45,078 nucleotides of DNA from contig CANFHO010000009.1 in the NCBI GenBank assembly GCA_947447005.1, forward strand, positions 1-45,078, written 5' to 3'. Shown here one piece after another: positions 37,255-38,880 of the stretch. Both the position numbers and the translations under genes were made by a program. Numbering within the stretch: the first letter of the stretch is position 1; the number at the start of each line of letters is the position of its first letter. The DNA is from Chitinophagaceae bacterium (GTDB lineage: Bacteria; Bacteroidota; Bacteroidia; Chitinophagales; Chitinophagaceae). The notes under the pieces are model-generated. The model ran no database searches and was not told the DNA's origin. It worked only from the letters and a program-made list of their open reading frames with translations.

Positions 37255-38880
37255 CTAGCTATACATCTCTGCTCTCAGCTCCTGAACACGCTTATCATCC
37301 AGATATTCATCAAAGGTCATCAACCTATCGATGGCACCTTTGGGAGTAAGTTCAATCACCCTGGTTGCAACGGTTTGCATGAATGTATGGTCATGAGAAG
37401 TCATCAACACAATGCCTGGGAAGTTCATACAGCCTTCGTTGAAGCTCTGAATACTTTCCAGATCCAGGTGATTGGTAGGTTGATCCAGAATCACACAGTT
37501 GGGGTTTTGAAGCATCATGCGACTTACCATGCAACGTACTTTTTCACCACCACTGAGCACTTTGGTTTTCTTTTGGATATCATCGCCACTGAACAACATC
37601 TTACCCAAAAATCCGCGTAAAAATGGTTCATCAGCATCTGTAACATGTGGTGGTACAAATTGACGCAACCAATCCATCAAACCATATTCTTCTTGAAAAA
37701 ACTGTCCGTTTTCTACCGGCAAATATGATTTGGTGATCGTTGTACCCCACTCAAATTTACCACCATCTGCCTGCACCTGATCATTGATGATTTCGAAAAA
37801 AGCGGTAACGGCGAGGGCATCCTTGCTTACAAAAGCAATCTTCTCCCCTTTGTTTACACTGAATGTGATTTTATCAAACAAAGTTCTTCCATCCACTTTT
37901 TTTGAGAGTCCTTCAACACTTAAAATCTGATTTCCTACTTCACGCAATGGCTGAAAAATGATACCAGGATATTTTCTGTTGGAAGGCTCAATCTCTTCGA
38001 TGGTCAATTTCTCCAATGCTTTTTTCCTGGAAGTAGCCTGCTTTGACTTGGATGCATTTGCACTGAAACGTGCAATGAAGTCCAACAAGGCCTGGCGCTT
38101 ATCTTCCATCTTCTTGTTCTTGTCGTTGATCTGTCTTGCCATCAACTGAGAAGACTCATACCAGAAGGTATAGTTACCTGTAAATACTTTGATCTTTGAT
38201 CTGTCAACATCCGCGACATGCGTGCAAACTGCATCCAGAAAGTGACGGTCATGGCTCACCACCAATACAATGTTTTCGTAATCTGCCAGGAAGTTTTCCA
38301 ACCATCCAATCGTTTCTAAATCCAACCCATTTGTAGGCTCATCCAACAACAAGATATCAGGGTTTCCAAACAATGCTTGTGCAAGCAATACACGCAATTT
38401 CATGTTGGAAGGCATGTCTTTCATCAGGGTCTGATGAAAATTTTCCTTCACACCCAAATCACTTAAAAATGTTGCTGCATCGCTTTCTGCAGTATATCCA
38501 CCCATTTCACCAAACTCTGATTCCAGCTCTCCAGCTCTGATCCCATCCTCTTCAGAAAAATCTTCTTTGGCATAAATTGTTTCACGCTCTTGTGCAACTG
38601 CCCACATTTTTTTATGTCCCATGAGCACGGTGTTCAACACCGTTTGTTCATCGAACTGAAACTGGTTTTGATTCAGGACCGCCATGCGTTCACCTGGAGT
38701 GATTTCAACAGTACCTTTATTCGGTTCAATTTCACCACTCAGGATTTTCAGGAATGTACTTTTTCCTGCTCCGTTGGCGCCGATAACACCATAGCAGTTT
38801 CCTTTTATGAAATTGATATTTACTTCATCGAAAAGTACCCTTTTGCCATAAGCCAGGGTGATATTGCGTGCACTGATCAT
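37255..38880 (-). CDS. YbiT-like ABC-F ATPase with a degenerate second ATP site
   Basis: A 541-residue soluble ABC-F protein, a ribosome-associated translation factor type. NBD1 has an intact Walker A ([12 protein letters not shown]) and Walker B ([12 protein letters not shown]181), but its ABC signature is SNMKLR. NBD2 keeps the signature LSGGEKVR. Its Walker A region ([20 protein letters not shown], about 343-362) lacks GxGKS, and Walker B is [12 protein letters not shown] with Gln (Q467) in place of the catalytic Glu. The linker [21 protein letters not shown] between domains is typical. The substitutions concentrate in one composite site, so one ATP site should be active and the other dead. 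It may regulate translation at the ribosome. Divergent from the M20 gene. Confidence 0.93.

Follow-up and report, generated by a model that had tools for sequence, protein, structure and literature searches.

The window, a stretch of 45,078 nucleotides from a Chitinophagaceae bacterium, encodes on its minus strand an ABC-F ATPase, probably of the YkpA/YbiT branch, in which all non-consensus ATP-binding motifs fall on one of the two composite ATP sites and the other site is consensus, which is the pattern of a degenerate composite site. This asymmetry of motifs is conserved among homologues and is accompanied by codon constraint. Judged from these sequence patterns, the protein is likely to be a single-site ATPase, and the reading that we favor, with moderate confidence, is that of a housekeeping translation factor of the YkpA/YbiT branch running on one ATP, in which site 1 would close and hydrolyze and site 2 would be structural.

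Gene, protein architecture and the two composite ATP sites

The gene, its interdomain linker and its immediate surroundings comprise the following features:

37255–38880, minus strand: ABC-F ATPase gene, probably of the YkpA/YbiT branch (open reading frame and translation; ATG start, 541 codons plus stop, 541 aa)
37966–38211, minus strand: interdomain linker (PtIM, ABC_tran_Xtn), residues 224–305, PF12848 match at 7.5e-20
38909–38916, minus strand: TAACTTTG, candidate Bacteroidota −7 box upstream of the ATG, read from the sequence
37200–37227, minus strand: intrinsic-terminator-like hairpin after the stop codon, with an 11-pair stem and a T tail

The consensus of the Bacteroidota −7 box is TAnnTTTG. 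Hairpins of the terminator-like type were found five times against an expectation of 1.9. Just downstream of the hairpin lies a 131-aa open reading frame with a GTG start (36790–37185, minus strand) that has no Pfam match. The adjacent plus-strand region (34708–36789) encodes a DUF7935 protein and, 18 bases on, a protein with a methylmalonyl-CoA mutase domain, and these two genes may form one operon.

Pfam searches assigned PF00005 (ABC_tran) in two stretches and PF12848 to the window protein; apart from the ABC domains and the linker, its Pfam matches consisted of two short ATPase hits (AAA_21 and SMC_N), with no transmembrane domain among them. Two ABC domains, a PtIM linker between them and the lack of transmembrane domains make up the ABC-F architecture, and by this architecture the protein is an ABC-F protein. 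It departs from the described ABC-F consensus of one Walker A and one Walker B motif per domain, as the Walker A motif of NBD2 is absent and the Glu of its Walker B motif is replaced by Gln. Among NCBIfam models, NF011646 (E. coli-type YbiT equivalog) comes closest, with 620 bits for the protein against a curated cut-off of 762; this cut-off was exceeded in one of 14 control genomes. Homologues from Bacillus and Priestia are 55–57% identical to the window protein, with NF011646 as the top NCBIfam model. The YbiT subfamily is reportedly a broad one with YkpA included (Murina 2019). Every NCBIfam resistance model that ranked within the best 25 of 182 families scored far under its cut-off for the window protein. 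A role in drug resistance is also not suggested by the native ABC-F proteins of S. aureus, YbiT among them, since these conferred no drug resistance according to the available sections of PMC10810581.

A composite ATP site of ABC proteins is described, in the accessible text of PMC7756269, as being formed by the Walker A and Walker B motifs and the A-, Q-, and H-loops of one domain together with the signature of the other. For the window protein, site 1 consists of the core of NBD1 and the signature of NBD2, whose D-loop is listed alongside:

38758–38781, minus strand: NBD1 Walker A GANGAGKS, residues 34–41 (K40 in 271/271 non-gapped rows of 272)
38668–38670, minus strand: NBD1 Q-loop, Q71 (Q in 272/272)
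38338–38355, minus strand: NBD1 Walker B with catalytic E181 (E in 272/272)
38251–38253, minus strand: NBD1 H-loop, H210 (H in 272/272)
37540–37557, minus strand: NBD2 signature LSGGEK, residues 442–447, which completes site 1 (S443, G444, G445, and E446 each in 272/272)
37462–37473, minus strand: NBD2 D-loop NHLD, residues 470–473, conserved (H471 in 272/272)

Site 2, built from the core of NBD2 and the signature of NBD1, is largely dismantled:

37804–37827, minus strand: NBD2 pseudo-Walker A SKDALAVT, residues 352–359, without a P-loop match
37480–37497, minus strand: NBD2 Walker B LDQPTN with Q467 (codon CAA) in place of the catalytic Glu, as read from sequence and codon
38395–38418, minus strand: degenerate NBD1 signature region, residues 155–162, the part contributed to site 2, with MPSNMK for LSGGx
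37894–37896, minus strand: NBD2 A-loop position V329, aromatic residue lost (Y/F in 9/9 homologues with two P-loops)
37714–37716, minus strand: NBD2 Q-loop position V389, Gln lost (Q in 18/272 as against 9/9 homologues with two P-loops)
38320–38331, minus strand: NBD1 D-loop NGLD, residues 184–187 (Gly185 in 70/70 sequences of the Q clade described below)
37393–37395, minus strand: NBD2 H-loop, H496, retained (H in 212/272; 69/70 in the Q clade)

In terms of these features the window protein scores five out of five at site 1 and one out of five, the H-loop, at site 2, where the Walker B Asp of NBD2 (D466) is retained as well. In comparison to the sequence LGTNGVGKST of E. coli YbiT, the P-loop glycines and the Lys of NBD2 are lost, with V358 at the Lys position. 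The original prediction, made from the same DNA, had named the loss of the NBD2 Walker A motif, the replacement of its Walker B Glu by Q467 and the degenerate NBD1 signature, had placed these three changes in one composite site and had described the other site as keeping GANGAGKS, E181, and LSGGEK; each of these residues was found as described in the translation, and the site scores support the assignment to a single site. Beyond the changes named there, V389 and V329 show that site 2 has also lost the Q-loop Gln and the A-loop aromatic residue of NBD2, and residue 185 of the NBD1 D-loop is Gly.

An AlphaFold2 model of the window protein (41 sequences, no ligand; pLDDT 88.1, pTM 0.85) places the end of the NBD1 strand at residue 34 and the beginning of the helix at K40; the corresponding NBD2 strand runs to residue 351, and its helix already begins at 355, three positions ahead of residue 358, the equivalent of the Lys. 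The prediction is hence that the phosphate loop of NBD2 is shorter and wound up as helix. The same was predicted for NBD2 of L161, a Bacillota homologue in which the Lys is kept; this second model is derived from the same 41 sequences and is not independent for this reason. By sequence, E. coli YbiT on the ribosome (9njf) is the closest solved structure, and ribosome-bound E. coli YbiT was also the top Foldseek match (TM-score 0.74, rmsd 12.1). By VIA-align, YbiT was tied with PoxtA, VmlR2, and human ABCF1 (Z 31–32). Over residues 1–533, the predicted fold could be aligned to ABC-F proteins bound to the ribosome.

Distribution of the one-sided loss

The sample used for comparison comprised 281 unique homologues: 98 from searches of the family and the phylum of the window (window included), 22 from a plasmid collection plus E. 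coli YbiT, 80 named loci from GTDB species genomes and 80 more from the order of the window. In the family search all 58 matching genomes out of 60 searched were taken, in the phylum search 44 of 57, and from the plasmid collection 22 of 51 matching records; the order search contributed 80 new sequences, beyond those already in the sample, from at least 184 matching genomes. The GTDB set represents the best 80 of at least 589 candidates as ranked by a Bacillus query, and Bacillota are for this reason over-represented.

The second P-loop is absent from 272 of the 281 homologues and present in nine. An alignment-free text search for GxxxxGK[S/T] gave the same division, with exactly one match in 271 of the 272, the remaining sequence being cut at a contig end, and two matches in each member of the control group, which contains nine sequences only. 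All five site-1 features are found in 271 of the 272 homologues, the exception being again a truncated contig. The retention of an intact NBD2 site in orthologues, which would have pointed to sporadic decay or sequence error, was thus not observed. According to record titles and taxonomy lines, the 272 sequences include Bacteroidota, Bacillota, Fusobacteriota, and one Mycoplasmopsis, besides metagenome bins labeled Deltaproteobacteria, Geobacter, and Bacteriovoracaceae. The idea that the loss is confined to the family of the window was rejected, as the second P-loop is absent from homologues of several large bacterial groups.

At site 2, a consensus Walker A motif is found in none of the 272 sequences, the Q-loop Gln in 18 and the SG of the signature (residues 157–158) in 35. 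Position 329 is mostly occupied by I (91), V (86), or L (23). Lys at position 358 occurs in 62 sequences, mostly from Bacillota, and residue 467 is Glu in 163, Gln in 85, Asp in 17, Asn in three, and Gly and Thr in two each.

The nine homologues with two P-loops are E. coli YbiT, five other sequences from Gammaproteobacteria, one from Neochlamydia and two from the phylum of the window (L104 and L105). The latter two, with 40–41% identity, are E. coli-like YbiT proteins with two intact P-loops. All nine have four out of five features at site 2, each lacking a consensus NBD1 signature; in E. coli ybiT (L136, 3964–5556) the signature reads VAPGWK despite an intact NBD2 Walker A motif. Judged from these sequences, the wider YbiT family may therefore already have an atypical site 2, and the order of loss may have been the NBD1 signature first, followed by Walker A, Q-loop and A-loop, and finally Glu467. 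Some Bacillota, however, have a near-consensus NBD1 signature. Among sequences from Lachnospiraceae and relatives (L193–L236), many have Glu467 and have lost the NBD2 H-loop His (SRDH, SQDH), which is another decay route of the same site.

The main alternative to the single-ATP reading is that site 2 binds ATP without hydrolyzing it, the nucleotide acting as a lasting glue, a role put forward for ABC exporters with a degenerate site. Asp466 (265/272) and the H-loop His (212/272) are mostly kept, and the Lys at the Walker A position persists in the 62 sequences mentioned above; moreover, the available part of a review on exporters cites indirect evidence for a possible scaffold role of ATP at the degenerate site (PMC7756269). 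However, the window protein is devoid of the P-loop glycines, the Lys, the A-loop aromatic residue, the Q-loop Gln and the trans signature, and its P-loop is shortened in the predicted model, which makes an ATP glue rather unlikely. The argument is weaker for relatives keeping Lys and Glu, and some residual nucleotide contact at site 2 is possible, at least in relatives, given the frequencies of Asp466 (265/272), Lys358 (62/272), and Glu467 (163/272).

History of Glu467 and constraint on site 2

Parsimony reconstruction was based on one FastTree topology, for which the site-2 motif columns were left out and which has weak support at some nodes; it placed Glu at the root for position 467 and required 18 changes, namely nine to Asp, four to Gln, two each to Asn and Gly and one to Thr, with none back to Glu. 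The outgroup of nine tips was monophyletic (support 0.997), and the count was again 18 on the rooted ingroup of 272 tips. By this reconstruction, Gln467 was rejected as ancestral to the branch, and the step from Glu to Gln is instead later and clade-specific. The four Gln groups contain 70 sequences from the order of the window (window included), 12 from what are presumably Clostridia, two from presumed Lactobacillales, the latter two assignments being taken in part from the names, and one Mycoplasmopsis. Within the family of the window, the 58 genomes with an orthologue (60 searched) have Gln in 35 cases, Glu in 22 and Asp in one.

The group of 70, hereafter the Q clade (node support 0.74), encodes Gln467 by CAG in 44 and CAA in 26 sequences, and its codon 467 underwent no amino-acid change and 23 synonymous changes. 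By a simple codon-counting estimate, unconstrained Gln codons change the amino acid more often than they change silently, and since the opposite is observed here, Gln467 appears to be maintained in this clade. Likewise, amino-acid and synonymous changes in the Q clade numbered 0 and 18 for S352, 0 and 30 for G185, and 0 and 33 for P157. In the Q clade, 31% of the NBD2 columns are likewise free of amino-acid changes, so that an invariant Q467 is what the domain core typically shows and is not unique. V358, which belongs to the same pseudo-Walker A motif as S352, underwent 12 amino-acid changes.

Across the 272 sequences, the site-1 residues rank at the 0–25th percentile of change. On the tree of 272 tips, no change occurred at H471, L472, or D473 of the NBD2 D-loop and eight at N470. 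At site 2, D466 ranks at the 14th percentile, Q467 at the 31st, and S352, A357, and H496 at the 37th–39th; residues 157–160 reach the 72nd–93rd percentile of NBD1 and residue 358 the 79th of NBD2, and fast change at these latter positions is the pattern given by relaxed constraint. This pattern, together with the variety of residues (D, Q, N, T, and G) that have replaced Glu467 in different lineages, would be compatible with plain relaxed decay, in which site 2 is dispensable and drifts without any selected role. Such drift does not readily account for Q467, S352, G185, and P157 in the Q clade, with no amino-acid change against 18–33 synonymous ones, nor for 18 parsimony changes at position 467 without a single reversal to Glu, and we regard it as quite improbable. 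The proposal that the asymmetry had been selected and is not random decay holds in part: the clustering of the changes on one site and the retention of Q467 within its clade speak for it, whereas some site-2 positions change fast, and a purely selected loss is not shown. Taken together, the sequences point to an old, fixed asymmetry in which nucleotide contacts were loosened and some residues became newly constrained.

Co-evolution with the loss of Glu467 was assessed by a column-wise Pagel likelihood ratio for 196 traits preselected by a correlation above 0.25. Site-2 columns ranked higher (Mann-Whitney p = 0.019, 19 vs. 176 columns) and made up seven of the top 15, with site-2 ranges that had been set after an earlier ranking was known and that include residues 188–189 of the D-loop region. 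The Bonferroni cut for 196 traits was passed by residue 189 only, and non-motif columns such as 293 rank high too. Overall, the result is only suggestive of a linked evolution of site-2 columns with the loss of Glu467.

A sequencing error or a pseudogene in the window genome has a negligible probability and is ruled out by the open frame, the occurrence of the same P-loop loss in the 272 homologues (window included), the codon constraint and the copy from a genome of the same genus (G053, 90% identical), which has the same pattern at every one of these motifs. The two other full-length ABC-F proteins found in the same genome (L002 and L003, on contigs 20 and 1) keep both sites.

Single-ATP operation and known systems

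ABC-F proteins are described as binding to the ribosomal E site in an ATP-closed form with two ATP and as requiring hydrolysis to leave the ribosome (PMC11282234, available sections). YkpA/YbiT of B. subtilis aids the translation of charged motifs, its effects on stalling being described as mild or weak in the accessible text of PMC11381351. Under the preferred single-ATP reading, ATP would be bound and hydrolyzed at site 1, formed by the NBD1 Walker A motif, Q-loop, E181, and H210 and the NBD2 signature. ATP at this site would close both domains, which would place the protein in the ribosomal E site with its linker reaching the peptidyl-transferase center, and hydrolysis at site 1 would release it from the ribosome. 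Site 2, consisting of the NBD2 Walker A and B motifs, Q-loop and A-loop and of the NBD1 signature, would have lost ATP hydrolysis and probably has little or no affinity for nucleotide; it may survive as a structural hinge or docking face, with the replacement residues S352, Q467, and G185 now constrained.

A protein of B. velezensis (L140), serving as a stand-in for B. subtilis YkpA/YbiT and 56% identical to the window protein, likewise has no NBD2 P-loop (GRNELAVTT) and keeps GANGAGKS, E, and LSGGEK; unlike the window protein, it has Glu at position 467. E. coli YbiT (PDB 9njf and 9nlf; 42% identity) shares the architecture, the linker and a non-consensus NBD1 signature (VAPGWK) with the window protein, but its NBD2 retains the Walker A motif (GTNGVGKST), the Q-loop and the Glu. 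A consensus site paired with a degenerate one is also found in the ABC exporters TM287/288, TAP, CFTR, and Pdr5 (PMC7756269, available part); these are membrane transporters, whereas the window protein is soluble and without transmembrane domains, and its loss takes the whole P-loop. For the ABC-F protein MsrD, the available text of PMC10314930 describes two ATP sites that do different jobs, with the same reported for Vga(A). The asymmetry of MsrD was found by mutating each of the two catalytic glutamates, whereas in the YkpA/YbiT branch it is written in the sequence.

Within the open-access literature, as far as its text was available, no description of a degenerate site was found for any ABC-F protein of the YkpA/YbiT branch. 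The words Walker, degenerate, and NBD do not occur in the paper on YkpA/YbiT function (PMC11381351), and in the survey of ABC-F diversity (PMC6723617) "degenerate" is absent and "Walker" occurs once. The family is already known, and the one-site branch is its new form, with an earlier mention being possible.

The branch of the window protein probably departs from the usual two-ATP cycle. More tentatively, and with a little less than even confidence, we suggest that the whole branch, in Bacteroidota, Bacillota, Fusobacteriota, and a Mycoplasmopsis, might operate on a single ATP: site 2 would be a nucleotide-free docking face with conserved residues of its own, closing and release would be driven by one site, and the two-ATP model would be inapplicable.

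ABC-F proteins are commonly trapped by a double Glu-to-Gln mutant (EQ2). A widespread branch in which one whole site has been lost constitutes a natural experiment on the question of which site does what, and in this one-site branch E181Q alone should match the effect that the double mutant has elsewhere. EQ2 designs and two-ATP models should therefore not be transferred unexamined to YkpA-type proteins.
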